This document shows positions 1-23,349 of a DNA stretch of 64,000 nucleotides, piece by piece. How positions within the stretch are numbered: the first letter of the stretch is position 1; every line of letters begins with the position of its first letter. The notes beneath the pieces are model-generated. The model searched no databases and was not told the DNA's origin. It saw only the letters and a program-made list of their open reading frames with translations. The position numbers and the translations under genes were made by a program. Location of the stretch: assembly GCF_001563265.1 (NCBI RefSeq), contig NZ_CP005083.1:1615001-1679000 (forward strand), given 5' to 3'. Origin of the DNA: Sphingobium sp. TKS (lineage in GTDB: Bacteria > Pseudomonadota > Alphaproteobacteria > Sphingomonadales > Sphingomonadaceae).

Positions 1-903
1 CACGCCCTTGTCCCGCGCCAGACGGATCGCGCCCGCCAGCAGCGGATTATCCGGCCCCACCAGACTGACCGTCACCACGCTGGCCCCACGCGCCGCCATC
101 CATCCGAGCGCCCGCGCTATCGCAAAGGCGCCGCCGCCAGCCGGATCGTCGCCATAGACATCGGCCACCAGCAGCGGCACGCCAGGCGCTGCGCCGCGCA
201 CGCTGCCCGCCCCGCTGATGAGCGACGCCACCGCTGTCCCATGGGAGCTGGCGCGGGGAGCGCCACGGGCAAAGCCCTGTTGCTCGACCGGGCCGCTTAG
301 CGCCGGGTGGCGCGCTACGCCTCCATCGATCAGTCCCGCTGCCTTGCCCCGCACCGGACCAGCTTCCGCAAGCGCGGGAGCCGTCATTCCGATCGAGGGA
401 CCGCTGGGGAAATAGAGATTGTCGGCGCTGGCCTGCGCTTCGGGGGCGATCGACCGCACCTGTTTCAATGCGCGGGACAGGCTGCGGCCCTGCGGCACGA
501 TCAGGCGGGCAATGCTGAGGTCGAGCCCCTCAATCGCCGCATTTTCGACCCCATAGCCCGCTGTGCGCAGCGCCTCGATGCTTTTCACTCCCGCGCCGGT
601 CAGCAATATGACGCCCCGCCGTGCCGGTTCGCGCCGGTCGTCCAGTTCCACCGAGTCCGCATGTCGCCGCAGCAGATCATCGATCCGCGCCGCTCGCACC
701 GCCACCAGCCGGTCTGCCAGACGAGCAGGCGACAGCCGGTCCAGGCCGGACTGGTCCAGCGTTCCTTCCACCCGGTTCAGCACATTGGGCACGATGCCGC
801 CCACCTGCCCCAGCGCGTTGCCGGAGGAAGAGAGCAATTGAGCCTGTGCGCCGGGCGCGGTCAGCAGTAGACCGGCGACGATCCATGGTCGTGCGAATTT
901 CAT
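1..903 (-). CDS. S8 (subtilisin-like) serine peptidase, exported, 3' part outside window
   Basis: An uninterrupted reading frame runs from an ATG at 903 to the window edge, giving 301 residues without a stop. Residues 1-22 form a signal peptide ending in AQA. The catalytic Asp lies in GLIDGG (about D194) and the catalytic His in SSHGTAVASL (about H221), the usual order for S8 proteases; the catalytic Ser would lie beyond the edge. The roughly 170 residues before the Asp may be a propeptide or accessory region. The gene is divergent from an ECF sigma/anti-sigma pair. Family assignment is firm; the substrate is unknown. It could be a client of the type II secretion system 10 kb away, but that is only inference. 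Confidence 0.85.
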   Translation of the reverse strand, partial: MKFARPWIVAGLLLTAPGAQAQLLSSSGNALGQVGGIVPNVLNRVEGTLDQSGLDRLSPARLADRLVAVRAARIDDLLRRHADSVELDDRREPARRGVILLTGAGVKSIEALRTAGYGVENAAIEGLDLSIARLIVPQGRSLSRALKQVRSIAPEAQASADNLYFPSGPSIGMTAPALAEAGPVRGKAAGLIDGGVARHPALSGPVEQQGFARGAPRASSHGTAVASLISGAGSVRGAAPGVPLLVADVYGDDPAGGGAFAIARALGWMAARGASVVTVSLVGPDNPLLAGAIRLARDKGV

Positions 904-990
904 CTCGACCTCTCTACCACCGGCGCGTCCCGTCCTTTCGCTCTCAAAATGATTCATCGCGAAAAAATTTCCGATACAAGATCCATCTTC

Positions 991-1026
991 AGGGATGAAA
1001 CGGCGGGCGACGCTCGTTTCATCCCT
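991..1026. promoter_or_regulatory. Perfect 12-bp inverted repeat upstream of sigma factor gene
   Basis: AGGGATGAAACG at 991-1002 is exactly repeated in inverted orientation at 1015-1026, around a 12-bp spacer. It lies between the divergent S8 protease and ECF sigma genes, 22 bp before the preferred sigma start. GAAAC and CGTT elements resemble ECF promoter halves, but their 13-bp gap is shorter than usual, so an operator is more likely than a promoter. Function is inferred from symmetry and position only. Confidence 0.4.
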
Positions 1027-1048
1027 GACGGACAGAAATGGAGACCGG

Positions 1049-3868: not shown

Positions 3869-4058
3869 GCGATTCGAATCGAGCATCGGATAACCTGTTC
3901 ATTCGATTACATTTTTATGACACTATTGCGTAAAATTTGTAAGTCATTGTTTTAAAATAAGTAAAAATCCTTTTTTAGCCTTTGTTCGTATCTTGTCCCC
4001 ATGTCATCAAAGTGAAATACTCATCGCTATTATAGAAAGTTTTTTTGGGAGAATCGGG

Positions 4059-4442
4059 ATGAAGATGGTGGCTGCGACTTTCGGTCTGGCGCTGCTTGCG
4101 TTTTCGCCGGCCGTGGCTTTCGCGGCACCTGACGAGGTGGTCGTCGTTGGGGTGCCTGATGGCCACTTGGCCGCGGGCGCTCTGGTATCGGGCGATTATG
4201 CCCATGCTGCGCAGCGGTTGGCAGTCGTGCGTCCCGACGCAGCCAACGATCCCGCGCGGCTTATCAATCTGGGTAACGCCTATGCCGGCATGGGCAAGAT
4301 GAAGGCAGCGCGCGCGGCCTATAAGGCGGCCCGTTTCGCGCCGGATTCACTGCTGGTCACGGCCGATGGCAATGAGTCCTCCTCGCGGGATATCGCGCGG
4401 CGGGCGATGGGCCGTCTGGAAGCGCAATACGCCATGCGCTGA
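4059..4442 (+). CDS. Small exported TPR-like protein
   Basis: The 127-residue product starts at the ATG at 4059, preceded by GGGAG; an in-frame upstream ATG at 3993 lacks a good ribosome site. Residues 1-23 form a signal peptide ending FAA. The remainder has helical tetratricopeptide-like pattern (ARLINLGNAYAGMGKMKAAR, then AAYKAARFAPDS). It is therefore periplasmic or secreted. It sits directly before the Pho-box-controlled lipoprotein and TonB receptor, but has its own upstream region. Function is unknown; a scaffold role for the neighbouring envelope proteins is speculation. Confidence 0.75.
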   Translation: MKMVAATFGLALLAFSPAVAFAAPDEVVVVGVPDGHLAAGALVSGDYAHAAQRLAVVRPDAANDPARLINLGNAYAGMGKMKAARAAYKAARFAPDSLLVTADGNESSSRDIARRAMGRLEAQYAMR

Positions 4443-4474
4443 AACTGCATGGCGAAGCCCTGGGTGCAGGGAGA

Positions 4475-4550: not shown

Positions 4551-4568
4551 CTGTCTTTAAACTGTCAT
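4551..4568 (+). promoter_or_regulatory. Pho box (PhoB operator) upstream of lipoprotein-TonB receptor genes
   Basis: CTGTCTT at 4551-4557 and CTGTCAT at 4562-4568 are separated by TAAA, matching the PhoB consensus of two 7-bp CTGTCAT repeats with a 4-bp AT-rich spacer. A further CTGTCAT lies at 4606-4612, exactly 44 bp (four 11-bp units) after the second repeat. The site is about 155 bp upstream of the lipoprotein start. PhoB control is inferred from the match; phoB itself is not in the window. Confidence 0.75.
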
Positions 4569-4723: not shown

Positions 4724-6316
4724 ATGGCCAAGATTAACCGTTTTCAAACGATCCTGATGGCGGGCTGCGCCTGCGCGGCGCTGAGCGCTTGCGGCGCCGA
4801 CGACATCGCTTCGCCCGGTGAGGGCACGATCGTCCTGCCGACGCCCACCCCCACGCCGACTCCGACCCCCACGCCGACGCCTACACCGACGGCGGTGACG
4901 CCGGCTTCGGGTTGCCCGACGATCGCCGGTTCCGACCAGTTGCAGGATCTGGGCACCATCACCGATGGCAGCAACACCTGGCGGAACTGCGGCTTCCCGG
5001 CCCGCTTCAACAGCACGACGGCGATCGCCAAGACCACGGGCGTTATCTACTCGCTGCCCGGCCGCGTCGATGTCGGTACTGACCAGGGCGCCGCGAGCAC
5101 CGGCACCAACGTCACCCTGTCGATCGATCCGGGCGTCGTGGTCTTCGCCAGCACCGGCAACGCCTATCTGGCGGTCAATCGCGGCAACAAGATCAACGCC
5201 GTCGGCACCGCCGCCAGCCCGATCGTCTTCACCAGCCGCGAAAACGTGACCGGCGCCGCGACCGACCAGTCGTCGGGCCAGTGGGGCGGCATCGTGCTGC
5301 TCGGCCGCGCGAAGATCACCGATTGCGACGCACCGGCCGCCGCGCCGGGCACCACCGCCTGTACACGTGACACCGAAGGCACCAGCAACGCCATTTTCGG
5401 CGGCGCGGACGATGCCGACAACTCCGGCCGCCTGAGCTATATCCAGATCCGCTATTCCGGCTTCGTGCTGGCGAACGGCAAGGAATTGCAGGGTCTGACC
5501 CCCTCGGGCGTCGGCACCGGCACGCAGATCGACCATATCCAGGTCCACAACAGCTCCGACGACGGTATCGAGGTCTTCGGCGGTTCGACCCATATGAAAT
5601 ATCTGGTTCTGACCGGCAACGAGGACGACAATCTCGACACCGACGTGGGCTTCCGCGGTACGGCTCAGTTCATCATCTCGATCCAGCGCGCCAACGCCAA
5701 TATCGGTGACACCTTCACCGAGACGGACTCCAACCCGATTGCCGGCGCGGCCAGCAATGCGAGCGAGGACGCGTTGCCCCGCCAATATCTGAAGGTGGCC
5801 AACTTCACCCATATCCAGCGGTCGAACACCGGCGACGATGGCGCGGCCATGATGCTGCGCGGCGGCGCCGACCTCGCCATGGTGAACGGCATCATCGTCA
5901 GCCCCGACCAGAGCTGCCTGCGCATCAACAGCGCGTCGACCGTGCGGGATGCCGATCCGGCGCTGCAGGACGCCGGCAAGCCGCGCTACCTGTCGGTGGT
6001 GATGCAGTGCAACGCCACGCCGTTCAAGGGCACCGGCGGCGCGGACGTGGCGCTGGTCCAGTCGATCTTCACGACCGATCCGAACAGCAGCTTCAGCTAC
6101 ACGCCGTCGCTGACCAGCCTGTTCATCAACGGCGCGACCGAAACCGCCCGCACCGCGATCGACCCCAAGACGATCGACAGCAACTTCACCACCACCAACT
6201 ATATTGGCGCGGTGAAGGACAGCAACGACACCTGGTATGCCGGCTGGACCTGCAACTCGGTGACGGCGAGCTTCGGCAGCACCAGCAAGAACTGCACGGC
6301 CATTCCGACCACCTGA
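4724..6316 (+). CDS. Surface lipoprotein with Pro-Thr linker, beta-helix-like
   Basis: The 530-residue precursor has a lipoprotein signal with lipobox LSAC (lipidated Cys about residue 23). A (Pro-Thr)n linker follows at about residues 40-57, then a long domain with repeated WGGIVLLGRA, NAIFGGADDADNSG, LSYIQIRYSGF and SSDDGIEVFGG-type motifs. These resemble right-handed parallel beta-helix proteins that are usually paired with outer-membrane receptors. A Pho box lies upstream and a TonB-dependent receptor follows 89 bp downstream. By analogy with the phosphate-starvation lipoprotein ElpS of Caulobacter, encoded beside a type II secretion cluster, it may be a functional counterpart; homology to ElpS could not be tested here. 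Confidence 0.72.
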   Translation: MAKINRFQTILMAGCACAALSACGADDIASPGEGTIVLPTPTPTPTPTPTPTPTPTAVTPASGCPTIAGSDQLQDLGTITDGSNTWRNCGFPARFNSTTAIAKTTGVIYSLPGRVDVGTDQGAASTGTNVTLSIDPGVVVFASTGNAYLAVNRGNKINAVGTAASPIVFTSRENVTGAATDQSSGQWGGIVLLGRAKITDCDAPAAAPGTTACTRDTEGTSNAIFGGADDADNSGRLSYIQIRYSGFVLANGKELQGLTPSGVGTGTQIDHIQVHNSSDDGIEVFGGSTHMKYLVLTGNEDDNLDTDVGFRGTAQFIISIQRANANIGDTFTETDSNPIAGAASNASEDALPRQYLKVANFTHIQRSNTGDDGAAMMLRGGADLAMVNGIIVSPDQSCLRINSASTVRDADPALQDAGKPRYLSVVMQCNATPFKGTGGADVALVQSIFTTDPNSSFSYTPSLTSLFINGATETARTAIDPKTIDSNFTTTNYIGAVKDSNDTWYAGWTCNSVTASFGSTSKNCTAIPTT

Positions 6317-6405: not shown

Positions 6406-9090
6406 ATGTCACAGCCGCTGAACATGGCGCGCCTGCTCCTGATTTCCACCGCGCTGGTCGCGCCTGCGGCCATGGCCCAGAACGCTGCGCCCACGCCGCC
6501 TGTCACCTCCGGCACGCCCACGCAATCCGAGGAAGAAGATGCGCAGGCCGGCCGGATCGACGTTTCCATCCCCGGTTCCGACATCATCGTCACCGGCCGC
6601 CGCACCAGCAATGTGTCGCAGGCAGCGCCGCAGGTGGTGAACGTGCTGTCCGCCGCCGACATCAAGCGCACGGGCGAGGGCGATATCGCTGGTTCGCTCC
6701 AGCGCGTGACCGGCCTTTCGGTCGTGTCGGGCGGCTATGTCTATGTGCGCGGCCTTGGCGACCGCTATTCGCTGGCGCTGCTCAACGGTTCGCCGCTGCC
6801 CAGCCCCGAACCGCTGAAGCGTGTCGTGCCGCTCGACATCTTCCCGACCAGCGTCATCGCCTCGACCCTGGTGCAGAAGAGCTATTCGGCCAACTTCCCC
6901 GGCGAATTCGGCGGCGGCGTCATCAACCTCACCACCAAGGCGATTCCGGTAGAGAGCTATCTGGAACTGAGCGTCGGCAGCTCGGCCAATACGGAGACGT
7001 CGGGTCAGCTCGGCTATACCTATTATGGCGCCAAGTCGGACTGGACCGGCTTCGACGACAGTTCCCGCGACGTGCCGCCGCTGCTGGCGGAGGCGTTCAA
7101 GAGCGGCGTGCCCTTCTCGAACATTCCGCGTGGCGACCTGCAGGCGATCTCGATGCAGTTCCTGAACGCCAAGACCTCCGTGTTGCAGCGGACCAACAGC
7201 CTGCCGTTCAATTTCTCCGGGTCGCTGAACGGCGGCACCTCCTTCGACGTTGGCAGCGACGGGCGCATGGGCTTGTTGCTGACCGCCTCCTACAGCAACA
7301 AGTGGCGGACGCGCGAAACGCTCCAGCAAGCATCGACCGACCTCAGCCAGGCGCCCGGCAAGACCGGCACGCAGGTCAACACGGACAATGAGATCACCGT
7401 AAACGCGCTGTTCGGCGTCGGGCTGGAACTGGGCGAGCAGAAGATTCGCTGGACCAATGTCTATATCCGCGACACGCTGAAGCGCGGCGCGCTTTCGCTC
7501 GGCCAGAATAATGGCGAGATCGAGGGCGCGGATTATATGAAGCAGAACACCGCCTGGTATGAACGGCAGTTGATCGACACGCAGTTGGTCGGTGAGTTCA
7601 AGCTGGGCGATGCCCTGAGCCTGGACATGCGCGGCGGCTATGCCAATTCGCAGCGCGAGGCGCCCTATGAGCGCGAGTTCGAATATGTGCGGACCAACCG
7701 CCCCCTTGCCATCGATCCGGTGGGGGATCGCTTCATCAACGCGCTCAACCGCCAGCGGGGCGACGCGTCGATCACCTTCAGCGATCTGACCGAGGATCTG
7801 TGGTCGGCGGGCGCTGACCTCAGCTACAAATTCTCGCCTGCCTTGACGCTGACGGCGGGCTATGCCTTTAGCGATACGAAGCGCAGTTCGTCCCGCTATG
7901 AACTGCATTTCGATGCGACCAACCTGCCGATCGGGGCGCAGCAGATGCGGCCCGACTATCTTCTGTCGGACGCCGCGATCCAGCTTTACGATATGACGCT
8001 GCTCGATTTCTCGGGCAATTATCCGGTCTATGACGCCGCGCTGCGCGTTCATGCCGGCTATGGCCAGGTGAAGGCGGAGCTGGTGCCGGGCGTCACCGTT
8101 GATGCGGGTGTGCGCTATGAAAAGGGCAAGCAGTCGGTCACGGGCATCGACGTCTACAATACGGGCGTGACGCCGGTGAACAAGATCGACAAGAGCTACT
8201 GGCTGCCCGCCGCGACAGTGACGTTCGAAGCGGCCAAGGGTCTTCAGTTCCGCATCAGCGGGTCGAAGACCATCGCCCGCCCGCAGTTCCGCGAACTGAT
8301 CGCGCAACCCTATATCGACACGGAATCCAACCGCTTCTATCGCGGCAACCCGTTCCTGCAGGACAGCATATTGTGGAATGCCGAAGCGCGGGCCGAATGG
8401 TATATGGGGCGCGACGAGCGGCTGACGCTGGCGGGTTTCTGGAAGAAGATCGACAATCCGATCGAAACCTACACCACGATCAACGACAAATATGACGTGA
8501 CCACCAGCTTCGCCAATGCGCCCGAAGCGACACTGTATGGCGCGGAGATCGAGGCGCAGAAATATCTGCCGCTGGACGGCTGGTCGGATGCCGCCTTCTT
8601 CCAGAGCCGCCGGATCGTGCTGATCGGCAACTATACCTATACCCAGTCGAAGCTGAAGGTCAGCGACGGCGACACCACCATTCCCTATAGCTACACCACC
8701 GGCGCGCTACCGGCGGCATCGGACTATTTCCAGGATGGCGTGCCGCTGACCGGGCAGTCGGATCATCTGGTGAACTTCCAGATCGGTCTGGAGGATACCG
8801 ACAGGCTGTCGCAGCAGACGCTGTTGCTGACCTATGCCAGCCCACGCGTGACCAGTCGTGGGCCGAACCTTCAGCCCGACATCAAGGAAAAGCCGGGCCT
8901 GACCCTTGATTTCGTGGCGCGTCAGGCGGTGAAACTGCCGGGCGGGATCAACAGCGAGTTCAAGTTCGAGGCCCGCAACATCACCGGCCGGAAATTCCAG
9001 GAGTTTCAGGAACTGGACGGCAACAAGGTGTTCTATAACCGGTATAAGATCGGCACGACCATAGCCGCCTCACTGACGGTCGCTTTCTAG
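6406..9090 (+). CDS. TonB-dependent outer-membrane receptor
   Basis: The 894-residue product starts at the ATG at 6406, preceded by GGGGGAC. A signal peptide ends at about residue 24 (AMAQ). A TonB-box-like DIIVTGRR and a plug domain follow (NVLSAADIKRTGEGDIAGSL, VYVRGLGDRYSLALLNGSPL), then a long beta-barrel ending in the C-terminal Phe typical of outer-membrane proteins (SLTVAF). It lies in the same orientation as the lipoprotein and probably shares its Pho-controlled transcript. This suggests uptake of a phosphorus-containing ligand or cooperation with the lipoprotein; the ligand cannot be read from sequence. Confidence 0.88.
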   Translation: MSQPLNMARLLLISTALVAPAAMAQNAAPTPPVTSGTPTQSEEEDAQAGRIDVSIPGSDIIVTGRRTSNVSQAAPQVVNVLSAADIKRTGEGDIAGSLQRVTGLSVVSGGYVYVRGLGDRYSLALLNGSPLPSPEPLKRVVPLDIFPTSVIASTLVQKSYSANFPGEFGGGVINLTTKAIPVESYLELSVGSSANTETSGQLGYTYYGAKSDWTGFDDSSRDVPPLLAEAFKSGVPFSNIPRGDLQAISMQFLNAKTSVLQRTNSLPFNFSGSLNGGTSFDVGSDGRMGLLLTASYSNKWRTRETLQQASTDLSQAPGKTGTQVNTDNEITVNALFGVGLELGEQKIRWTNVYIRDTLKRGALSLGQNNGEIEGADYMKQNTAWYERQLIDTQLVGEFKLGDALSLDMRGGYANSQREAPYEREFEYVRTNRPLAIDPVGDRFINALNRQRGDASITFSDLTEDLWSAGADLSYKFSPALTLTAGYAFSDTKRSSSRYELHFDATNLPIGAQQMRPDYLLSDAAIQLYDMTLLDFSGNYPVYDAALRVHAGYGQVKAELVPGVTVDAGVRYEKGKQSVTGIDVYNTGVTPVNKIDKSYWLPAATVTFEAAKGLQFRISGSKTIARPQFRELIAQPYIDTESNRFYRGNPFLQDSILWNAEARAEWYMGRDERLTLAGFWKKIDNPIETYTTINDKYDVTTSFANAPEATLYGAEIEAQKYLPLDGWSDAAFFQSRRIVLIGNYTYTQSKLKVSDGDTTIPYSYTTGALPAASDYFQDGVPLTGQSDHLVNFQIGLEDTDRLSQQTLLLTYASPRVTSRGPNLQPDIKEKPGLTLDFVARQAVKLPGGINSEFKFEARNITGRKFQEFQELDGNKVFYNRYKIGTTIAASLTVAF

Positions 9091-10686: not shown

Positions 10687-10688
10687 AT

Positions 10689-11393
10689 TCAGGTCCAGCG
10701 CCGTTCGCGATACCATTTGGTGATGACATGCTTGACGCCGCTGCGGACCTTCATGCCGTGATGAATGCTGGCGGAATTATATTCGCCCGGACCTAGCCGG
10801 TTGTTCCAGGCGAGCAGCTTGCCGGTTTCGGGCTGCACCGTCTTGCCGATCTTGACGAAGCGGGTTGCGCCGCCTGCCGCCGGTTCATTGAGATAGACCA
10901 TCAGCGTCCAGGTGCGGTTGCCCGCGACCGTGCAAAAGCGTTCGAAATCGGAGCCTTTTGGTTCGAAATAGTCGGTATGCGCCTTGAATTCCTGGCCCAC
11001 GGCATAGCGCTGGCCCTGGATCGGTTCGCCATGCGCGGGATCGATGCCTGCAAAGGCCGCCAGTTTCGCGTCGATCGTCGCGACGAACGGATCGGCGGCG
11101 TCCAGGTCGCATGTCTCGCTGGTGCGGAAATATCCGTCGCCATTGGCGTCCGCGATAGTGGAAGGGCGCCTGTGAGCGTCGATCCGTTCGATCAGCTTCG
11201 CGCATTCCTCCGCCGAGAGGAAATTGCGCTGAATGAACAGGGTGAGATCGCGGTTGGGGACGCGCTGGCGCGGGGATGGGCGGCGATCCAGGCCGGATCG
11301 GCGTCCGGGGCGGATGGAGGGGGGCTGTTGGCCATCATGGGTCCAGGATGCGGAAACTGCGCCCGTTGCTATCGCTGGCCGCGCGAAATGCAA
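10689..11393 (-). CDS. 2OG-Fe(II) oxygenase, prolyl 4-hydroxylase-like; probable N-terminal frameshift
   Basis: The C-terminal 185 residues form a prolyl-4-hydroxylase-type double-stranded beta-helix. The iron ligands are seen in HTDYF and in HHGMKVRSGVKHVITKWY, whose Lys would bind 2-oxoglutarate. The open frame begins at 11393, but its first 45 or so residues are low-complexity and Arg-rich. A natural-looking start, MMANSPPPSAPDADPAWIAA, lies in another frame from 11338 and would join the conserved RVPNRDLTLF if one base were restored near 11266. I judge this a single-base deletion or a sequence error. It converges on the CYTH-CHAD gene with 2 bp between stops. Confidence 0.75.
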   Translation of the reverse strand: MHFARPAIATGAVSASWTHDGQQPPSIRPGRRSGLDRRPSPRQRVPNRDLTLFIQRNFLSAEECAKLIERIDAHRRPSTIADANGDGYFRTSETCDLDAADPFVATIDAKLAAFAGIDPAHGEPIQGQRYAVGQEFKAHTDYFEPKGSDFERFCTVAGNRTWTLMVYLNEPAAGGATRFVKIGKTVQPETGKLLAWNNRLGPGEYNSASIHHGMKVRSGVKHVITKWYRERRWT

Positions 11394-14518: not shown

Positions 14519-16062
14519 TTGAAGCAGCCGGACAAGAGCCTGATCCCATTCCCCCGCATATGGCGCCGCGTGCGGTCGACATACCCTATGTCTTTGCGCG
14601 CAAGCATGGCGTCGTCATGCTGCCGCTGGAGGGAGAACGGCTGACCATCGCGGTACGCGAGGGCAGCGATCCGCGCGTGCTGCTGGAAGTGCGGCGGCAT
14701 CTGGCGCGCAGCTTCGATGTCCGTTTCGTAGATGCGCCGCAATTCGACCGGCATCTGTCGGATCATTATGCGATGGAGGGCAGCGCCGCCGCCATGGCGG
14801 GTTCGCTCGATGTGGGAGCGGATGAACTGGACATTCTCGCCGCCGATATTCCGACCGCCGACGATCTGCTCGACAGCGCCGACGATGCGCCCGCGATTCG
14901 CCTGATCAACGGTATCATTGCCGAGGCGGCGCGGCAGGGCGTGTCGGATATTCATATCGAGCCCTATGAGACGGGCCTGATCGTGCGGATGCGCGTCGAT
15001 GGAGTGTTGCGTGAGACGCTGCGCATGCCGCCGCATGTCGCGCCGGTCGTCGTCAGCCGCATCAAGGTCATGGCGCGGCTCGATATTGCCGAGCGGCGCG
15101 TGCCGCAGGATGGGCGGATCGGGCTGACCCTGGGCGGCAAACTGCTCGACGTGCGCGTGTCGACATTGCCGAGCCGGGCGGGAGAGCGGGTGGTGTTGCG
15201 CATTCTCGACAAGGAGAATGCGGGCATGAACCTTGACCTGCTGGGCATGACGGGCGCTCCGGACCGGATTTTCCGGGAAGGTTTGCAGGAGCCCAATGGC
15301 ATCATTCTCGTCACCGGGCCTACGGGGTCGGGCAAGACGACGACGCTTTATGCAGGGCTGCGGCAGCTCAATGACGGGACGCGCAATATCCTGACCGTCG
15401 AGGATCCGGTCGAATATGCGATCGAGGGCGTCGGGCAGACACAGGTGAATGCCAAGGTCGGGCTGACCTTCGCGGCAGGGTTGCGGGCGATTTTGCGGCA
15501 GGATCCCGATGTGGTGATGGTGGGCGAAATCCGCGATCGCGAGACGGCGGAGATCGCCGTGCAGGCTTCGCTGACGGGACATCTGGTGCTTTCGACCGTG
15601 CATACCAACGATGCCGTGGGCGCGATCACCCGGATGCGCGACATGCGGGTGGAACCGTTTCTGCTGGCCTCGACCCTGCGCGCGGTCATTGCGCAGCGGC
15701 TGGTGCGGCGGCTCTGTCAGCATTGCCGGGAGCCGGTGCAGGCGGACAAGTCGGCCAGCGCTTTGCTGGGCTTCGATCCCGGCACGATCATCTACCGGGC
15801 GCGTGGGTGTGAGGAGTGCAATGGCTCCGGGTACAAAGGCCGGATCGGCGTGTTCGAGGCGATCCGGGTGGATGATACCATCCGGCGGCTGATCAATGAC
15901 GGCGGCGATGAATCGCTGATCGCGCGCCATGCTTTCCTGAATGCGCCCAATCTGGGATCGGCGGCGCGGGCTTTGGTGCGCGACGGGCAGACCACGGCGG
16001 AGGAGGCCATCCGTGTGTCGCGGCGCGATGCGGCGGAGGCGGAAACCATCGCTGATGGCTGA
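14515..16062 (+). CDS. gspE: Type II secretion ATPase GspE
   Basis: GspE is the cytoplasmic ATPase powering pseudopilus assembly. The 515-residue protein starts at a GTG overlapping the gspD stop. It shows Walker A GPTGSGKTTT at about residues 267-276, an Asp box, Walker B-like DPDVVMVGEIRDRETAEIA and the His box TGHLVLSTVHTNDA. The tetracysteine zinc element is present (CQHC, then CEEC). The N-terminal domain is shorter than in gammaproteobacterial members. Confidence 0.95.
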   Translation: MIEAAGQEPDPIPPHMAPRAVDIPYVFARKHGVVMLPLEGERLTIAVREGSDPRVLLEVRRHLARSFDVRFVDAPQFDRHLSDHYAMEGSAAAMAGSLDVGADELDILAADIPTADDLLDSADDAPAIRLINGIIAEAARQGVSDIHIEPYETGLIVRMRVDGVLRETLRMPPHVAPVVVSRIKVMARLDIAERRVPQDGRIGLTLGGKLLDVRVSTLPSRAGERVVLRILDKENAGMNLDLLGMTGAPDRIFREGLQEPNGIILVTGPTGSGKTTTLYAGLRQLNDGTRNILTVEDPVEYAIEGVGQTQVNAKVGLTFAAGLRAILRQDPDVVMVGEIRDRETAEIAVQASLTGHLVLSTVHTNDAVGAITRMRDMRVEPFLLASTLRAVIAQRLVRRLCQHCREPVQADKSASALLGFDPGTIIYRARGCEECNGSGYKGRIGVFEAIRVDDTIRRLINDGGDESLIARHAFLNAPNLGSAARALVRDGQTTAEEAIRVSRRDAAEAETIADG

Positions 16063-17272
16063 GTTCGATTATATTGCGATCGACCCCGCGGGGAAGGAGC
16101 GCTTGGGGCGGGTCAAGGCCGACACGATGGATGATGCCCGTGCCCGGCTGGATGCGCGCAAGCTGTTCATCGTCCGGATTGAGCCGGGAGCAGTCGAGCG
16201 GGCGCGCAAGCGGACGGGGTTGTCGCTGCGATCGCCGCGCCTGTCGGCCAAGGAACTGACGCTCTTCACGAGGCAGCTTTCGACGCTGATCCAGGTCAGC
16301 CCGCTGGAGGAAGCGCTGCGCACCATCGGGCGGCAGAGCGAGCAGGCGCATGTGCGCGCCATCGTCGCCAAGGTGCATTCGGGCGTGCTGGAAGGGCGAC
16401 GGCTGGCGGATGCGCTGGGCGCGGAACCAAAAAGCTTTCCGCCGCTCTATCGCGCGATGGTTTCGGCGGGTGAAAGTTCAGGCAGCCTGCCGACGATCAT
16501 GGAGCGGTTGTCGGATTTGATGGAACGGCAGGCGGTGATCCGGTCCAAGGTGCTGACCGCCATTGCCTATCCCAGCGTGCTGGCGGCCTTTGCGGTATGC
16601 GTGGTCGCGGCGCTGATGATCTTCGTCGTGCCCAAGGTGGTTGAGCAGTTCGATACGGTCGGGCAGCAATTGCCGTTGCTGACGCGGATGGTGATGGGGA
16701 TTTCGGCCTTTCTTGCCGGTTACTGGTGGCTGTTGCTGATCCTGACCGGGTTGGCGGGTTTGGGCTTCTGGCGGGCGTTGAAGGTCGAGAATTTTCGCTA
16801 TCGCTTTGATTCCATGCTGCTGCGTCTGCCGCTGTTGGGGCGGCTGATCCGGGATCTTCACGCGGCGCGGATGGCGCGGACGCTCTCGACCATGGTCGCC
16901 AGTCGCTTGCCGCTGATGGAGGGGCTGTCGCTGACCACCCAGACCGTCCACAACAGGGTGCTGCGTCAGGCTTCGGAGGAGATTGTCGAGGCCATTCGCG
17001 GCGGTGGCAGCCTGTCAGCGGCTTTGCGGCGAGGGGGGGTGTTTCCGCCGCTGCTGGTCTATCTGGCGGCGAGCGGGGAGAGCGCGGGGCGGCTGGATAC
17101 CATGCTGGAGCGGGCGGCGGATTATCTGGAGCGGGAATTCGACAGCTTCACCTCCACCGCGCTCGCCCTGCTGGAGCCGGTCATCATCATTTTGATGGGC
17201 GGAATCGTCGCCGTCATCATCCTGTCCATCCTGCTGCCCATCCTGCAATTGCAGAGCCTTACCGGGGCCTGA
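16055..17272 (+). CDS. gspF: Type II secretion inner-membrane platform protein GspF
   Basis: The 405-residue polytopic protein has two repeated GspF cytoplasmic domains (LTLFTRQLSTLIQVSPLEEA, then ARTLSTMVASRLPLMEGLSL) and three membrane segments at about 170-192, 220-242 and 375-400. It forms the platform that GspE acts on. The ATG at 16055 overlaps the end of gspE by eight bases, so translation is coupled. Confidence 0.94.
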   Translation: MAEFDYIAIDPAGKERLGRVKADTMDDARARLDARKLFIVRIEPGAVERARKRTGLSLRSPRLSAKELTLFTRQLSTLIQVSPLEEALRTIGRQSEQAHVRAIVAKVHSGVLEGRRLADALGAEPKSFPPLYRAMVSAGESSGSLPTIMERLSDLMERQAVIRSKVLTAIAYPSVLAAFAVCVVAALMIFVVPKVVEQFDTVGQQLPLLTRMVMGISAFLAGYWWLLLILTGLAGLGFWRALKVENFRYRFDSMLLRLPLLGRLIRDLHAARMARTLSTMVASRLPLMEGLSLTTQTVHNRVLRQASEEIVEAIRGGGSLSAALRRGGVFPPLLVYLAASGESAGRLDTMLERAADYLEREFDSFTSTALALLEPVIIILMGGIVAVIILSILLPILQLQSLTGA

Positions 17273-17282
17273 AGGAGTGTTT

Positions 17283-17756
17283 ATGCGTAAATTCCTCTCT
17301 CTCCGTCATTCCCGCCTTCGCGGGGATGACGAAAATGATGGAGAAAGTGGCTTCACCCTTGTCGAACTGATGGTCGTCATCGTCATCATCGGCCTGTTGG
17401 CGACGATCGTGGCGATCAACGTCATCCCGGCGACCGATACGGCGCGGGTCGAGAAGGCCAAGGCCGACATCGCCACCATCGAGCAGGCGCTGGAGCAATA
17501 TCGGCTGGATAATCTGACCTATCCGGCGGGGACCGATGGCTTGCCGGCGTTGATCAGCCCGCCCGCTTCACTCGCCCAGCCGCAGCGTTACCGGCGCGGA
17601 GGCTATATCAAGAAGCTGCCGAACGATCCCTGGGGCCGCCCCTATATTTATGCGGTGCCGGGGCGGAAGGGCGCGTTCGACATCAGTTCGCTGGGCGCGG
17701 ATGGCCAGCCAGGCGGCGAGAATGAGAATGCCGACATCTATTCCAGCGAGCTTTGA
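17283..17756 (+). CDS. gspG: Major pseudopilin GspG with repeat-derived leader
   Basis: GspG is the main pseudopilus subunit. The mature part begins FTLVELMVVIVIIGLL after the cleaved Gly and carries the family's C-terminal DPWGRPY and YSSE regions. The leader is unusually long, about 22 residues, because the start region contains a 26-bp palindrome of the REP-like family (17305-17330) translated as RHSRLRGDD. The ATG at 17283 follows AAGGAG with good spacing; a GTG at 17277 is possible. Prepilin peptidase GspO would cut at GESG/FTLVE. Confidence 0.93.
   Translation: MRKFLSLRHSRLRGDDENDGESGFTLVELMVVIVIIGLLATIVAINVIPATDTARVEKAKADIATIEQALEQYRLDNLTYPAGTDGLPALISPPASLAQPQRYRRGGYIKKLPNDPWGRPYIYAVPGRKGAFDISSLGADGQPGGENENADIYSSEL
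17305..17330. repeat. REP-like palindrome inside gspG leader
   Basis: GTCATTCCCGC and GCGGGGATGAC flank a CTTC loop, giving an 11-bp stem with one G-T wobble. The same sequence forms the arms of the 88-bp elements at 2273 and 41813. Here it is in frame within the pseudopilin leader, 22 bp after the start codon. Confidence 0.8.
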
Positions 17757-17781
17757 TCGCTCGCCGTCAGGATTGAAGTCC

Positions 17782-17874
17782 TTGAGGCGATCCGCCGAAC
17801 ACGGCTTCGGGCCTTTGAGACGTTCCGCCGAACACGGCTTCGAGTCTTTGAGACGCTTCGCCGAACACGGCTTC
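17782..17874 (+). repeat. 33-bp tandem repeat, nearly three copies, in gspH leader
   Basis: The core GCCGAACACGGCTTC recurs at 17794, 17827 and 17860, with exact 33-bp spacing, so the frame is kept. Each unit also contains the imperfect palindrome GCCGAACACGGC. The unit resembles no coding motif of pseudopilins and looks like a repeat that expanded inside the leader. Confidence 0.85.
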
Positions 17875-18297
17875 ACGTTGATCGAGCTGATGGTCGTACT
17901 GACGATCATCGGCTTCATTTCGGCTGCGGTCGTGCTCGCCATGCCCGATCCGCGTGGCCGGGTGATCGAGGATGCCGACCGCTTCGCCGCGCGTGTTGCC
18001 GCCGCGCGCGACGAAGCGGTCGTCACTGCGCGCCCTATGGGGGTGTGGGTTTCGGCTTCGGGTTATGGTTTCCAGCGCCGCGATGGCGCGCAATGGGTGC
18101 CGCTGGAGGACAAACCCTTCGTCACCGCCAACTGGAAAGCGGGAACGCGGGCTCTGGTCGGCAAGGATGGGCGACAACAGATCGGTTTTGACGGCACGGG
18201 CCTGCCGACCGATCCGATGACGGTGACGTTGGCGCGTGATGGCGAGCGGGTATCGGTGACGGTCGATATGGCCGGGAAGGTGGCTGTCGGTGGGTAA
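17782..18297 (+). CDS. gspH: Minor pseudopilin GspH with triplicated leader
   Basis: GspH is a minor pseudopilin; the mature part begins FTLIELMVVLTIIGF and ends in a beta-rich GspH domain. The N-terminus carries three 11-residue tandem units, LRRSAEHGF, LRRSAEHGF and LRRFAEHGF, the last running into the true cleavage site G/FTLIE. Each unit starts with TTG. I choose TTG at 17782 because AGGA precedes it by 9 bp. TTG at 17773 or 17848, or ATG at 17650 (overlapping gspG), are alternatives. No ATG or GTG lies close to the mature domain. Confidence 0.82.
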   Translation: MRRSAEHGFGPLRRSAEHGFESLRRFAEHGFTLIELMVVLTIIGFISAAVVLAMPDPRGRVIEDADRFAARVAAARDEAVVTARPMGVWVSASGYGFQRRDGAQWVPLEDKPFVTANWKAGTRALVGKDGRQQIGFDGTGLPTDPMTVTLARDGERVSVTVDMAGKVAVGG

Positions 18298-18652
18298 GCG
18301 CGCCAACGGCTTTACGCTTCTGGAGATGCTCGTCGCGCTGGCGGTGTTCAGCCTTGCCGCGCTGGCGCTGGTGCGCTTGCAGGGGGTGACGCTCCACACG
18401 GCGGCGGACCTCGACAGCAAGGCCATGGGGCAGATCGTTGCCCGCAATCTGATGGTCGAGTTGCAGACCGATCCCGCGCCGCCTTCGCTCGGCAGCGAGG
18501 AGGGCGAGGTCGACAATGGCGGGCGGCGCTGGCACTGGACGCGTGAGGTCAAGGTGACCGATGACAAGCGGCTGTTGCAGGTTAATCTGGCGGTAGATGG
18601 GCAGGCGGGATCCTCGCCGGTCGTGCTGAGTTTTGTGCGGGTGGTGCAGTGA
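18290..18652 (+). CDS. gspI: Minor pseudopilin GspI
   Basis: The 120-residue protein starts at a GTG overlapping the gspH end. It has a normal short leader (MGKRANG) and the prepilin motif G/FTLLEMLVALAVFSLAALAL. GspI is the core of the GspI-J-K tip complex. The C-terminal part has alternating strands (HWTREVKVTDDKRLLQVNLA) expected for the family. Confidence 0.9.
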   Translation: MGKRANGFTLLEMLVALAVFSLAALALVRLQGVTLHTAADLDSKAMGQIVARNLMVELQTDPAPPSLGSEEGEVDNGGRRWHWTREVKVTDDKRLLQVNLAVDGQAGSSPVVLSFVRVVQ

Positions 18653-19290
18653 TGCGCACATTCGCTCATGATGGGGCTGGCTTTACGCTGATCGAACTGC
18701 TGGTTGCGCTCATGATCTTCGCCATGTTGGCGGCGGCGGGCGTGCTGCTGCTCGGCAACAGCGTGTCGGCGCAGGCGCAGATCAAGCTGCGACTGGACGA
18801 TATGGCGGCGGTGCAGCGGGCGGGCGGCGCTCTGGCCGCCGATCTGGGGCAGGCGGTGCCACGCATCAGCCGCACCGAGGCGGGGACGCTCGCGCCAGCC
18901 TTCTGGTCGCATCGGGAGGGCGAGAGCGTCCCCCTGCTTCAATTCGTGCGCGGTGGCTGGGACAATCTGGGCGATCTGCCGCGCCCTTCCTTGCAGAAGG
19001 TCGAATATTGGGTGCGGCAAGGGCGGCTGGAGCGGCGGACCTATGCGCAGGTCGATGGCGCGGCGGGAGATGAACCGGCGGCGCTGCTGGATCATGTCGA
19101 AAATGTCGCGCTGCGCTTTCGCGATGCCAAGGGCGATTGGCGAGACGATTGGGCGCCGACCCAGCCCGACCTGATGCCGCGCGCCGTGGAGATGATGGTG
19201 ACGCGGACGGGCGAGCCGCCGGTGACTTTGCGCTTTCTGGTCGGGCCGGGTCCGGTGGAGAAGCTGGAAGGGGAGGCCGTCGGTGGCTGA
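18652..19290 (+). CDS. gspJ: Minor pseudopilin GspJ
   Basis: The 212-residue protein has a leader of about 10 residues and the prepilin motif G/FTLIELLVALMIFAMLAAAG, followed by a large globular domain of GspJ length. The ATG at 18652 overlaps the gspI stop; a GTG at 18649 immediately upstream is also in frame. It forms part of the pseudopilus tip with GspI and GspK. Confidence 0.9.
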   Translation: MRTFAHDGAGFTLIELLVALMIFAMLAAAGVLLLGNSVSAQAQIKLRLDDMAAVQRAGGALAADLGQAVPRISRTEAGTLAPAFWSHREGESVPLLQFVRGGWDNLGDLPRPSLQKVEYWVRQGRLERRTYAQVDGAAGDEPAALLDHVENVALRFRDAKGDWRDDWAPTQPDLMPRAVEMMVTRTGEPPVTLRFLVGPGPVEKLEGEAVGG

Positions 19291-20272
19291 TCCCCGGAAA
19301 GCGAGCGAGCGCGGCGTGGCGTTGCTGACGGTGCTGCTGCTGGTGGCGGTGATGGCGGTGGTCGCAGCGACCGCGCTGGAGCGGCTGGCGCTGGCGACGC
19401 GGATGACGGGCAATGGCGGCGCGGTCGATCAGGCGCGCGCCTTTGCCGATGCCGGAGCGGAGATTGCGCGCCTGCGGATCGGTGATCTGGTGGCGGCCAA
19501 TCCGGGCAAGACGACGCTGGCCGGGAACTGGATGGGGACGCCTCAGGCGATCGCCGTGCCGGGTGGGATGGCGACGGCGCGGGTGACGGACGGCGGCAAT
19601 TGCTTCAACCTCAACAGCGTGGTCGCTGGCGAGAATGAGGCCGATCTGAAGGTCCGGCCCGTGGGGGTGTCGCAGTTCCAGGCGCTTTTGCAGGCGCTGG
19701 GCGTGGATGCGCGGCAGGCGCAGGTGGCGGCGGCTTCGCTGGCCGACTGGATCGATACCGACAGCGTGCCCCAGCCGGGCGGGGCGGAGGATGAGACCTA
19801 TGCGCGGGCGGCGCGGCCCTATCGCACGGCGAACCGCTTCATGGTCGATCCCAGCGAGTTACGGGCGGTGAACGGGGTGACGCCAGCGATCTACGATCTG
19901 GCGCGGCCCTGGGTGTGCGCGCTGCCGACGGCGGATTTGTCGCCTATCAATATCAACACCTTGCTGCCCAATCAGGCGCCGCTCTTCGCCATGCTGATGC
20001 AGGGACAGCTCAGCGTCCCGCAGGCGCGGCAATTGCTGGCGCAGAGGCCTGCGGAGGGATACGGCAGTACGGTGGCGTTCTGGGCCGTGCCCGCGCTGGC
20101 AGGGTTGAGCCCGCTGGAAGAAGTGGCGAACCAGGTCAAATTGACGACGGGATTTTTCGGAGTGGAAGTGTCGGTGGATGTTGGGGGGACGCAGGTGGTC
20201 GAACGGGCGCTGATCGATGCGCGGCAAAGTCCGGCTACGCTGATACGCCGCAATTGGGGGGCCGGCGCGTGA
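19283..20272 (+). CDS. gspK: Minor pseudopilin GspK
   Basis: The 329-residue product is the large tip pseudopilin. It has a short leader with G/VALLTVLLLVAVMAVVAA and lacks Glu at +5, as usual for GspK. Domain features are DWIDTDSVPQPGGAEDETYA, a metal-binding-like loop, and ININTLLPNQAPL, a SAM-like helix-hairpin motif. It starts with GTG and overlaps gspJ by eight bases. Confidence 0.92.
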   Translation: MADPRKASERGVALLTVLLLVAVMAVVAATALERLALATRMTGNGGAVDQARAFADAGAEIARLRIGDLVAANPGKTTLAGNWMGTPQAIAVPGGMATARVTDGGNCFNLNSVVAGENEADLKVRPVGVSQFQALLQALGVDARQAQVAAASLADWIDTDSVPQPGGAEDETYARAARPYRTANRFMVDPSELRAVNGVTPAIYDLARPWVCALPTADLSPININTLLPNQAPLFAMLMQGQLSVPQARQLLAQRPAEGYGSTVAFWAVPALAGLSPLEEVANQVKLTTGFFGVEVSVDVGGTQVVERALIDARQSPATLIRRNWGAGA

Positions 20273-21387
20273 ACCAGGCCGAAGGATTGATCGTGACGCT
20301 GGCCGGGGAGCCGGGGGGCGCGCCGCTGTGGATGCGGGTAGCGAACGGCGCCGTGGTGCAGACAGGCGAGGGAGCGAACTGGCTGGCGGCCTGCGGGCTG
20401 GCGGCGCTGCCGGACGACATGACGGTGATGCTGGTGCCGCCGGCCGCGTTGGTGACGCTGCATGAAGGGCATTATCCCGATCTGCCTGTGCGGCAGGGAC
20501 GGGCGGCGGCGCGGCTGGCGGCATTGGCGAAGGGGATCGTGCCCTCCGATCAGCTTTTCGCGGCCGCCAATGAGAATGACGATCCGGCAAGGCCGCATCT
20601 GGTCGCCGTAGCGGCGCGGGCCGATATGCAGCATTGGCTGCTCTGGGCGCAGCATCATGGGCTGGACCCCGATATCATCGTCCCTGCGCCGCTGCTGCTG
20701 CCGGAGTCGCAGCATGGCTTCCTGCGCGGGATCATTGGCGGCGCGCCGGTGCTGCGCGGTATGGATATGGCACTGGCCGGCGATCTGGCGCTGCCGGAGC
20801 TGATCGGTGATGCGGTGGTGCGGGATGTGCCGCATGAGCAGATCGATGCGCGGGCGATTGCTGCGCTGCACGCGCCGCCGCTGGACCTGAGGCAGGGTGA
20901 TTTCGCGAAAAGGGTGCGCCGGTCGTTCGACAAGCGGACGCTGGCACGGATCGTGCTGTGGAGCGGGTTGATCCTTCTGGTAAGCCTGTTGATCGCGCTG
21001 GTTGGCCTGACGAAGCAGCATTTCGCGGCGAGCGGGCTGGATGCGGAAAGCCTGGCGCTGGCGCGGCAGGTGGTGCCCGGCGCGACCGAACTGATTCAGG
21101 CGGAGGCCGAGATGGACCGCCAGCTCGCCGCTCGCGGCGCGGGAGGCTATGCCTTCACCGCGCCGGTCGCGGCGGTGCTGAACGCGATGCAGGATGTGCC
21201 GGGGGTGTCGCTCACTGCTCTGTCCCGTGATCCGGACGGCATGGTCCGGGCGACGCTAGCGGCGGCGAAGATGGATGACATCAACAGCGTGTTGCTGGCT
21301 TTGCAGGCGGCGGGCTTCACGATCACGGCGACGCCGTCGCAAGACCCCGGCGGGCGAATGCTGGCTGACATTACGGTGCGATCATGA
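20269..21387 (+). CDS. gspL: Type II secretion assembly protein GspL
   Basis: The 372-residue protein starts at GTG 20269, overlapping the gspK stop. It has an actin-like cytoplasmic domain (LPDDMTVMLVPPAALVTLHE, VALHAPPLDLRQGDFA-type end), a single membrane helix at about residues 225-245 (IVLWSGLILLVSLLIALVGL) and a ferredoxin-like periplasmic domain. GspL connects GspE to the platform and partners GspM, the next gene. Confidence 0.88.
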   Translation: MNQAEGLIVTLAGEPGGAPLWMRVANGAVVQTGEGANWLAACGLAALPDDMTVMLVPPAALVTLHEGHYPDLPVRQGRAAARLAALAKGIVPSDQLFAAANENDDPARPHLVAVAARADMQHWLLWAQHHGLDPDIIVPAPLLLPESQHGFLRGIIGGAPVLRGMDMALAGDLALPELIGDAVVRDVPHEQIDARAIAALHAPPLDLRQGDFAKRVRRSFDKRTLARIVLWSGLILLVSLLIALVGLTKQHFAASGLDAESLALARQVVPGATELIQAEAEMDRQLAARGAGGYAFTAPVAAVLNAMQDVPGVSLTALSRDPDGMVRATLAAAKMDDINSVLLALQAAGFTITATPSQDPGGRMLADITVRS

Positions 21388-21872
21388 TGGAACGTCTGAA
21401 AGTGCTCTGGGGCGAGCGATCCCCGCGCGAGCAGTGGATGCTGGGCGTGATGTTCGGGTTGCTGGCGGTGGTGATCCTGTGGCTGGGGGTGTTTCTTCCG
21501 CTCGATGCGGCGCAGCGTTCGGCCCGTGATGCGCTGCGCGAGGCGACTGATCGCAACGCGGTGATCCGGGCCAGGGTGAAGCTGTTGAAATCCTTGCCGC
21601 GTGCAGCCGGAATCGCGGATACGGGCGTGCCGCTGGATCAGTTCATCGGGCAGAGCGCGGGCGAGGCCGGGCTGACGCTGGAACGCGCGCAGGCGCAGGG
21701 GGCGGATCGGCTGGACATGGCGATCGCTTCGGTGCGCCCGGTGGCGCTGTTTTCCTGGCTGGCAGCGCTGGAGGCGCAGGGCGTGAGGGTCGAAACGATG
21801 AGCGCGCGGCCATCACCGACGGCGGGCAGCGTGTCGGTGCAGGCGGTGCTGGTGCGGGGCGGCGGGCAATGA
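21384..21872 (+). CDS. gspM: Type II secretion protein GspM
   Basis: The 162-residue protein has a short cytoplasmic N-terminus (WGERSPREQWML), one membrane helix at about residues 19-37 and a periplasmic ferredoxin-like domain. This matches GspM in size and position. It overlaps gspL and gspN by four bases each. Confidence 0.88.
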   Translation: MMERLKVLWGERSPREQWMLGVMFGLLAVVILWLGVFLPLDAAQRSARDALREATDRNAVIRARVKLLKSLPRAAGIADTGVPLDQFIGQSAGEAGLTLERAQAQGADRLDMAIASVRPVALFSWLAALEAQGVRVETMSARPSPTAGSVSVQAVLVRGGGQ

Positions 21873-22591
21873 TGGGTTTGTCGCTCTCGCGCCGGATACG
21901 CATGGCTTTAATCCTGCTCTTTGCCCTGGGCTTCATCCTTTTCCTGCCGATGCGGATTGCGCTTGGCATGGCCGGGCTGGAGCGATTGGGCGTCGCTGCG
22001 CGGGAAGTGCAGGGTACGGTGTGGAGCGGCGGGATCGACCGGCTGATGTTGGGGACGACTTCGCTGGGTTCGGTTCATGCCGGCTTGTCGCCTGTTTCCT
22101 TGCTGGTTGGACGGGCCCGGCTCGATATCTGGCGGCGCAACGGCGCGGCTGATGATGTGGCGGGCGCACTGACGGTCGGCTTGGGGCGGATCGGCATCGA
22201 TGACATGACGGGCGCGGTGCCGCTGGGACGGACATTCGCGCCGCTGCCGGTGAACAGCTTCGTCATGGAAGATGTGTCGGCCTGGTTTTCCGGCGATCGT
22301 TGCGGCCATGCGGAGGGGCGGGTGCGAGCGCAGATGGCGGGGCAATTTCCGGGGCTTAATCTGTCGCAGGGTCTTTCGGGCGTGGTGAGTTGCGATGGCG
22401 ATGCGCTCCTGCTGCCATTGGTGAGCCAGTCGGGGTTGGAGAAGGTCAATCTGCGCATCTGGCGCTCCGGCCGCTATGTGGCGGAAATGCGGGTGGAGAC
22501 GGCGGACACGACCTTGGGAGACGCTCTGGCCAAGGCAGGTTTTGTCGAAGGCGGCGGCGTGCGCGTGCTGAAGGTCGAAGGGACGCTGTGA
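21869..22591 (+). CDS. gspN: Type II secretion protein GspN
   Basis: The 240-residue protein has an N-terminal membrane anchor (LILLFALGFILFLPMRIALG) and a periplasmic domain with AREVQGTVWSGGIDRLMLG, characteristic of GspN. GspN is an accessory component not present in all systems. The gene overlaps both neighbours by four bases. Confidence 0.88.
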   Translation: MMGLSLSRRIRMALILLFALGFILFLPMRIALGMAGLERLGVAAREVQGTVWSGGIDRLMLGTTSLGSVHAGLSPVSLLVGRARLDIWRRNGAADDVAGALTVGLGRIGIDDMTGAVPLGRTFAPLPVNSFVMEDVSAWFSGDRCGHAEGRVRAQMAGQFPGLNLSQGLSGVVSCDGDALLLPLVSQSGLEKVNLRIWRSGRYVAEMRVETADTTLGDALAKAGFVEGGGVRVLKVEGTL

Positions 22592-23349
22592 TCCAGGCCT
22601 TTCCCGCCCTGCTGGGCGGCATTGCGGGAGCCATTGCCGGGAGCTTCCTGGCCACGCTCATCCTGCGCTGGCCGCGGGGCCGCGGGATCACGCATGGCCG
22701 GTCGGCCTGCGACGAGTGCGGGCGGGTCTTGGGTGTGATCGACCTTGTTCCCATGGTGAGCGCGCTCGTGCAGCGGGGGCGCTGCCGGACCTGCGGCGCG
22801 CCGATCGATCCGCTGCATGGGCGGGTGGAGGCGGGGTGCGCGATCATCGGTGCGCTTGCCCTGGGCTTTTCGCCTGAGCTTGGCGGGATGGGATGGGCGT
22901 TGCTCGGCTGGCTGTTGCTGACGCTGGCGGTGCTGGACAAGCGGCATTTCTGGCTGCCCGATGCGCTGACCTTGCCGCTGGCGTTTCTGGGCTTCACCAT
23001 CGGGCTTTGGACCACCGGGGCGACGATGGGGGATAGGGCGATTGGCGCTATGGTCGGTTATCTGGCGCTGTTGCTCGTCGCGCTTGGCTATCGGCGGTTG
23101 CGGGGGCGTGAAGGGCTGGGGTTGGGAGACGCCAAGCTGCTGGGCGCGCTGGGCGCCTGGTTCGGTTGGCAGGCCTTGCCTTTCATTCTGTTGCTGGCGG
23201 CAAGTCTGGGGCTGCTGGCGGTCCTGGCGGCAATGGCGGTGGGCCGGACGGTCGATGGCGCAACGCGGGTACCTCTAGGGACTTTTCTGGCCGCAGCGGC
23301 CATTCCGGGCTGGTGGCTTTCGGTGCTGGCCACCGGGGCAGGAGCCTGA
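22588..23349 (+). CDS. gspO: Prepilin peptidase / N-methyltransferase GspO (A24)
   Basis: GspO cleaves and methylates the pseudopilins. The 253-residue polytopic protein starts at a GTG overlapping gspN. It has the cytoplasmic zinc region with two Cys pairs (CDECGRVL and CRTCGAPI). The catalytic Asp residues are in TLAVLDKRHFWLPDAL and GLGLGDAKLLGALGAW. It closes the thirteen-gene operon gspC to gspO; a trailing pilD-type peptidase inside the operon means the locus can be self-sufficient. Confidence 0.92.
   Translation: MIQAFPALLGGIAGAIAGSFLATLILRWPRGRGITHGRSACDECGRVLGVIDLVPMVSALVQRGRCRTCGAPIDPLHGRVEAGCAIIGALALGFSPELGGMGWALLGWLLLTLAVLDKRHFWLPDALTLPLAFLGFTIGLWTTGATMGDRAIGAMVGYLALLLVALGYRRLRGREGLGLGDAKLLGALGAWFGWQALPFILLLAASLGLLAVLAAMAVGRTVDGATRVPLGTFLAAAAIPGWWLSVLATGAGA

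Follow-up and report, generated by a model that had tools for sequence, protein, structure and literature searches.

A predicted phosphate-starvation locus of Sphingobium sp. TKS resembles the Caulobacter elpS-TonB receptor-type II secretion system and has a prolyl 4-hydroxylase gene homologue beside gspC

The 64,000-nucleotide stretch of Sphingobium sp. TKS analyzed here (contig NZ_CP005083.1, positions 1,615,001 to 1,679,000; hereafter the window) carries an ElpS-type lipoprotein gene, a gene for a TonB-dependent receptor (TBDR) and the genes of a complete type II secretion system (T2SS). We consider it highly probable that this locus is the sphingomonad version of the elpS-TonB receptor-T2SS phosphate-starvation system of Caulobacter. 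The assignment is based on gene content, synteny, conserved Pho boxes, family membership and predicted fold; from these we infer that PhoB binds, that the lipoprotein is on the surface and works with the receptor, and what its ligand may be. The core of this idea, put forward in a first-pass annotation of the same DNA, is sound and is already in print, Sphingomonas alaskensis included (PMC2996285; this and the other cited papers are represented here by extracts). The main features are listed below, Pho boxes being given with their position weight matrix (PWM) score.

3906..3923, minus strand: Pho-box pair A, GTGTCATAAAAATGTAAT, reverse-oriented in front of the TPR gene, PWM 22.3
4001..4018, plus strand: Pho-box pair B, also in front of the TPR gene, with a conserved TAT-rich stretch resembling a -10 element after it, PWM 16.9
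4059..4442, plus strand: gene for a small, putatively exported TPR protein (TPR models match weakly, short of the cut-off; export assigned by eye)
4551..4568, plus strand: Pho-box pair C before the lipoprotein gene, PWM 22.3
4724..6316, plus strand: ElpS-type, putative surface lipoprotein (PF28492), predicted right-handed beta-helix
4835..4888, plus strand: X-Pro linker codons, LP(TP)8, after the lipid anchor (from the sequence and the linker table)
6406..9090, plus strand: TBDR (PF00593 and Plug)
10689..11338, minus strand: prolyl 4-hydroxylase (P4H) homologue of the 2-oxoglutarate (2OG)-Fe type (PF13640), divergent from gspC
11418..11446, plus strand: Pho box D before gspC, three repeats 11 bp apart (TTGTCAT-GCGTCAC-GTGTCAT), PWM 18.6 and 17.5
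11505..12335, plus strand: gspC (PF11356)
12332..14518, plus strand: gspD secretin (TIGR02517, 587 bits)
14515..16062, plus strand: gspE ATPase (TIGR02533)
16055..17272, plus strand: gspF (TIGR02120, scored on the longer open reading frame (ORF) 15941-17272)
17277..22591, plus strand: gspG, H, I, J, K, L, M and N (profile matches)
22588..23349, plus strand: gspO prepilin peptidase (PF01478 and PF06750)

From left to right the order is an S8 protease gene with an ECF sigma/anti-sigma-like pair, TANGO2, tmRNA, the TPR gene, the lipoprotein, the TonB receptor, a CYTH-CHAD gene, the 2OG-Fe oxygenase and gspC-gspO. Profile matches and the sequence itself bear out the lipoprotein, the receptor and the full T2SS of the first-pass annotation: the gene set C to O is complete in 11505-23349, with GspH at 78.2 for a cut-off of 80 and GspC passing the Pfam T2SSC model and falling short of the NCBIfam cut-off. 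Two genes had been overlooked, namely the TPR gene (4059-4442), which is the third gene with a Pho promoter, and the P4H gene (10689-11338).

The lipoprotein has the lipobox LSAC with Cys23, followed by a nine-fold X-Pro linker. AlphaFold models the protein (pTM 0.81) as a right-handed parallel beta-helix. Foldseek run on this model alone gave no match below E 0.001; VIA realignment of the model shows beta-helices, and these matches inform on the type of fold, not on an enzymatic function. A sequence search for solved relatives found none, its two matches being at chance level. Of the named loci, those of Sphingobium sp. 15-1 (97%) and S. chungbukense (96%) have the most similar lipoproteins. 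The parallel with ElpS is supported by the conserved Pho boxes and by Caulobacteraceae homologues that match most of the length of the lipoprotein: the Caulobacter endophyticus protein (lipobox LAGC) is 43% identical over 465 aa, and that of Brevundimonas, in a locus ordered lipoprotein-TBDR-gspC...G, is 39% identical. As the comparison was made with Caulobacter congeners and the CC0170 sequence was not retrieved, membership in the ElpS family rests on these homologues and on the shared synteny, including the adjacent TonB receptor and the complete T2SS. The lipoprotein family was found in 85 of 119 family-level genomes after two weak matches were dropped, in 21 of the 60 genomes of a Caulobacteraceae sample (one weak), and in 9 of 289 class-level genomes, the TKS genome included (one weak). 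Also, one locus (L143, G150:C3) encodes a tandem duplicated beta-helix in a single frame of 965 residues, beside a TBDR and a T2SS; to judge by length alone, the same doubling may be present in some proteins of 823-837 aa from Hyphomonas and Rhodospirillaceae.

The loci of relatives are 80 named ones, the best of 459 confirmed; they are related to one another, so that counts over them are not independent. The lipoprotein and the TBDR adjoin in all 80. Neighbors were scored by tblastn (E <= 1e-8, at least 30% of the query) in the 52 loci with full flanks, where gspC/D was present in 47, the 2OG gene in 29, the TPR gene in 27 and CYTH-CHAD in 18. The TPR gene occurred in 27/27 Sphingobium-like loci and in 0/25 others; L146 and L147, from two further genera of the family, also show it linked to the lipoprotein (36-37% identity). 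In ten Sphingobium-type loci (L035-L037, L039, L041, L043, L053, L054, L057, L060) the T2SS is found across the lipoprotein from its position in the window and is oppositely oriented, and the divergent gspC/P4H region still has Pho boxes.

E. coli and alphaproteobacterial Pho boxes served as the model for the PWM, which was hand-set, as were its cut-offs and background frequencies. Five window sites reached 14, all within 3906-11446, those at 11418 and 11429 overlapping. The plain consensus CTGTCATN4CTGTCAT with 3 mismatches was at chance level in the window (4 found for 3.25 expected), and this search was therefore replaced by genome-wide, PWM and conservation tests. In the 6.23-Mb genome, the 4551 site is the sole match to the plain consensus with at most one mismatch; with at most two there are 27 sites, compared with 8 for the pattern in reverse. 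Of the weaker sites, many lie inside ORFs. A relaxed pattern without mismatch occurs at six places of the genome: three are in the cluster (pair A among them), two precede a PstS-like gene and a phosphate-selective porin (PF07396), respectively, and one is unassigned. With at most one mismatch it gave 28 sites for 11 in the control. The motif is supported by hits of the same scans at the PstS-like gene, the PF07396 porin and a PF02333 phytase. Mixed support came from the upstreams of 30 Sphingobium PstS-like loci, whose best match to the 14-position consensus was 13 in one case (L133) and 8-10 in the other 29; no PstS-like protein passed the TIGR02136 cut-off in 41 genomes.

A PWM score of at least 14 was reached by 65/67 gspC upstreams of relatives (62/67 when gspC-directed sites alone were counted) and by all 35 TPR-gene upstreams. 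Lipoprotein upstreams were weaker, with 39/71 at 14 or more and 59/71 at 12 or more. None of the 273 control upstreams reached 14 (TBDR 0/80, gspD 0/63, gspE 0/62, gspF 0/50, TANGO2 0/18), one TBDR upstream reaching 12. At 16 or more, 147 of the 153 sites in the 80 loci fell in the 65 kb upstream of the lipoprotein, gspC, TPR and P4H genes, and 6 in the remaining 1.41 Mb. In 62/67 gspC and 56/71 lipoprotein upstreams, none of 50 dinucleotide shuffles scored as high as the best site. Promoters of gspC from Sphingopyxis and Sphingobium have clearly different flanks and the same repeat inside. In a wider family sample (L176-L204), 20 of 23 readable lipoprotein upstreams reached 14, 6 of 29 being unreadable by script. 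The PWM scan, the genome-wide counts and the conservation in relatives agree on the Pho boxes that had been noted before the lipoprotein/receptor pair (4551) and gspC (11418), and on this sequence evidence the Pho boxes of the locus are real. They are the observed basis of a predicted phosphate-starvation control of the system.

Pairs A and B are oppositely oriented, about 95 bp apart, between the tmRNA and the TPR gene, and are well conserved in Sphingobium relatives; an alignment of 35 Sphingobium-type relatives plus the window shows both, pair A having diverged in L055. The reverse pair A might drive a leftward transcript antisense to the end of the tmRNA. Two further Pho-box-like sites were seen on C1 of the TKS genome. 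One, near 773,500 (L006; PWM 17.2), is shared by the beta-propeller-type phytase (PF02333), which has a lipoprotein-like N-terminus, and a divergent gene called TBDR-like by eye; this pair is a candidate member of the same regulon or client of the T2SS. The other, near 3,950,900 (L169; PWM 24.2), lies 45 bp upstream of an ORF whose product has CBS and MCP-signaling domains.

In Caulobacter crescentus, the order elpS (cc0170)-cc0171-gspC-N/O has been described, with conservation in S. alaskensis, Hyphomonas and Xanthomonas; ElpS is induced by low phosphate, anchored at the surface and released in a T2SS- and protease-dependent manner (Le Blastier 2010, PMC2996285). The Caulobacter T2SS has since been listed in the PhoB regulon (PMC11208175, 2024). 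Common to both loci are a lipoprotein of the same family as the Caulobacter homologues, an adjacent TonB receptor, a complete adjacent T2SS and a link with phosphate, which in the window is predicted from the Pho boxes (PMC2996285, PMC11208175). The window differs in having its own Pho boxes before gspC and the TPR gene (the comparison covered the promoters of the window and its relatives), in the CYTH-CHAD and P4H genes inserted before gspC, and in a T/P-rich linker, whereas the linkers of Caulobacter-type homologues are Gly- or Asn/Pro-rich. Surface localization and release of the TKS lipoprotein are predictions from the genes alone. The FI, FII and FIII proteins of Flavobacterium johnsoniae, two of which are encoded beside TonB-dependent transporters (PUSIII/PUSIV), have reported ElpS homology, and these relatives are induced by low phosphate (PMC8115612); the likeness is by published description, not by alignment. 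The beta-helix model of the lipoprotein agrees with the polygalacturonase-like model given for them, whereas their gene order differs and the extract of that paper reports no T2SS link. The extract of PMC9123166 contains nothing on an ElpS-type system.

We propose that, upon phosphate limitation, PhoB-P would bind three promoter regions, those of the TPR gene, the lipoprotein-TBDR pair and gspC-O. Carried on a flexible X-Pro linker, the lipoprotein with its polysaccharide-binding type of beta-helix would be displayed at the cell surface, where together with the TonB receptor it would most likely hold and import phosphorus-bearing or phosphatase-generated ligands. The T2SS would export hydrolases plus a protease able to release the lipoprotein.

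Several observations weigh against this proposal. In Caulobacter, cc0171 was described as constitutive and T2SS production was called constitutive as well, gspE and gspL being up 1.7-fold in poor medium, which fits badly with a common PhoB switch; ElpS preparations were without alkaline phosphatase activity (PMC2996285). None of the five Sphingomonas loci whose flanks extend to gspC (L088, L102, L105, L106, L108) has a site of at least 14 toward gspC; three have one on the opposite strand. The Caulobacteraceae sample gave 5 of 18 readable lipoprotein upstreams at 14 (2/20 unreadable). Also, gspC/D was not nearby in 5 of the 52 full-flank loci. This last point, together with the separate Pho promoters, the ten loci with the T2SS on the other side and the finding that surface display did not need the T2SS in Caulobacter, speaks for another possibility, that the T2SS is a system distinct from the lipoprotein-receptor pair beside it, each of them having a Pho box for phosphate scavenging, with no T2SS-dependent release of the lipoprotein. 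We regard this as possible and somewhat doubtful, as Sphingobium, Sphingopyxis, Sphingomonas and Brevundimonas all show the linkage, and as deletion of the T2SS abolished the release of ElpS in Caulobacter (PMC2996285).

The gene beside gspC adds a new element to this ElpS-type locus. By its sequence, the product of 10689-11338 is a prolyl 4-hydroxylase homologue: its 2OG-Fe domain matches the collagen-type bacterial and algal enzymes 3itq/5hv0 and 2jig (E 4.4e-20 for 3itq, 1.5e-9 for 2jig) and 7zsc, P4H alpha-2 (5.8e-16). Of these, 3itq is from Bacillus, 7zsc from human and 2jig from Chlamydomonas. HxD, the distal H and K are aligned with 3itq, and these residues presumably have their usual roles, including 2OG binding by the K. 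Compared with 3itq/5hv0 and 2jig, the TKS frame is broken near 11270 (minus-strand gene, 10689-11393), so that the N-terminal segment conserved in relatives and the catalytic domain lie in different frames; the frame is intact in L030-L032. The true start is therefore probably not that of the TTG-started ORF, and the enzyme of this strain may be inactive, or the assembly wrong. Inspection by eye showed no signal peptide on the P4H; a proline modification would therefore have to precede export. A Pho box of at least 14 is shared in 31 of the 36 cases where the P4H gene lies beside gspC, and was found before none of the 20 orthologues examined out of the 50 away from the locus. P4H was therefore rejected as a member of the Pho regulon, and the shared box more likely serves gspC.

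The P4H orthologues were defined by at least 56% identity, a cut-off chosen after viewing the match list, and a cut-off of 50% was run alongside; all counts are among the matches listed. An orthologue was present in at least 65 of the 85 Sphingomonadaceae genomes with the lipoprotein, 15 of them having it within 12 kb of the lipoprotein. Linkers were counted in 83 genomes (the 85 less G338 and G378, the latter absent from the tree), with one lipoprotein for each multi-copy genome; the first count was of 78, seven having missed the lipobox pattern, six of which were read by eye and added. An alternating X-Pro linker (run of at least 3) occurred in 62 of 65 genomes with the orthologue and in 6 of 18 without, where linkers were mostly poly-Pro, Asn-Pro-Thr, Gly or other. 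In the Caulobacteraceae sample linkers were mostly of Gly-, Ser- or Asn/Thr-Pro type, and 17 of the 60 genomes had a P4H-like match, the closest single one at 44%.

Shared ancestry or base composition could also produce such an association as a by-product, without any relation of enzyme and substrate, an explanation that we hold to be plausible if rather less probable. Ancestry was addressed by pair tests on a tree built from the beta-helix domain (441 columns, first build) without the linker. Among 12 independent pairs differing in P4H, the linker varied in the same direction as P4H in about 7.5, in the opposite direction in 0, and stayed the same in about 4.5, which argues against the by-product. 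The sign test gave a median p of 0.016 (range 0.004-0.06) for runs of at least 3, 0.031 for at least 4 and 0.008 for at least 5; with the 50% cut-off, 10 pairs gave medians of 0.016, 0.031 and 0.031 for the same runs. Genome-wide, the median number of coding matches to (Pro-Thr)3-Pro was 9 for the 72 genomes that have the orthologue and 0 for the 47 that lack it (Mann-Whitney p 2e-9, uncorrected for ancestry; matches were counted with overlap, so that long tracts weigh more). Control (Pro-Lys/Glu)n tracts showed no association with the orthologue over the 119 genomes (p 0.28; paired p 1), again at odds with a by-product. The paired (Thr-Pro)n test reached p 0.008 at 5 or more matches; at 2 or more and 3 or more it gave 0.06-0.07 with a few pairs opposite, which favors the by-product, as do the exceptions: G436 has a long TP linker and no orthologue, G343 and G404 have an orthologue and a poly-Pro-like linker, 8 of the 47 genomes without the orthologue have at least 5 TP matches, and 5 of the 72 with it have none.

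On this comparative evidence, X-Pro tracts, the lipoprotein linker among them, are probably hydroxylated by the P4H encoded beside gspC, which would be a general enzyme; such surface-linker substrates would be new compared with 3itq/5hv0 and 2jig. We put forward more tentatively, as a good possibility and not yet a probability, that sphingomonads hydroxylate the (Thr/Ser/Ala-Pro)n linkers of exported proteins by a collagen-type P4H, the ElpS-type lipoprotein being one substrate, and that this tunes linker stiffness or protection from the releasing protease. Plants and green algae, whose cell-wall proteins are hydroxylated likewise, offer a comparison. In listings of openly licensed papers (CC0, CC BY, CC BY-SA), no link of P4H with the T2SS or with lipoprotein linkers and no description of this P4H in Sphingomonas was evident.

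Two further genes of the window had been counted as parts of the system.

left edge of the window: S8 protease fragment (PF00082, 27 bits)
9247..10686, plus strand: CYTH-CHAD protein gene (profile search), judged outside the system

Both lie where the first-pass annotation had placed them, at the left end and between receptor and T2SS, and both were rejected as parts of the module by the locus survey. A wider secretion, capture and polyphosphate-storage module, with S8 as releasing protease and CYTH-CHAD as storage factor, is very improbable: physical proximity and the 2/19 CYTH-CHAD upstreams of relatives that reach 14 speak for it, while S8, ECF and anti-sigma matches are absent from all 52 full-flank loci (0/52), CYTH-CHAD is found in 18/27 Sphingobium-like and 0/25 other loci, no window Pho site of at least 14 precedes either gene, and a profile search of the window shows S8 to be divergent from the ECF-sigma/anti-sigma-like pair. 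As CYTH-CHAD is patchy and has no such site, the integrated storage function that had been proposed is unsupported.

These data extend the experimentally studied ElpS/T2SS phosphate system of Caulobacter to sphingomonads, with cis-regulatory evidence that is directly testable. The new feature is a P4H gene beside gspC whose presence predicts X-Pro-rich linkers, and which points to a candidate protein modification in bacteria. If true, modification by P4H would help to explain why some of these bacteria have Thr-Pro linkers and others poly-Pro or Gly.

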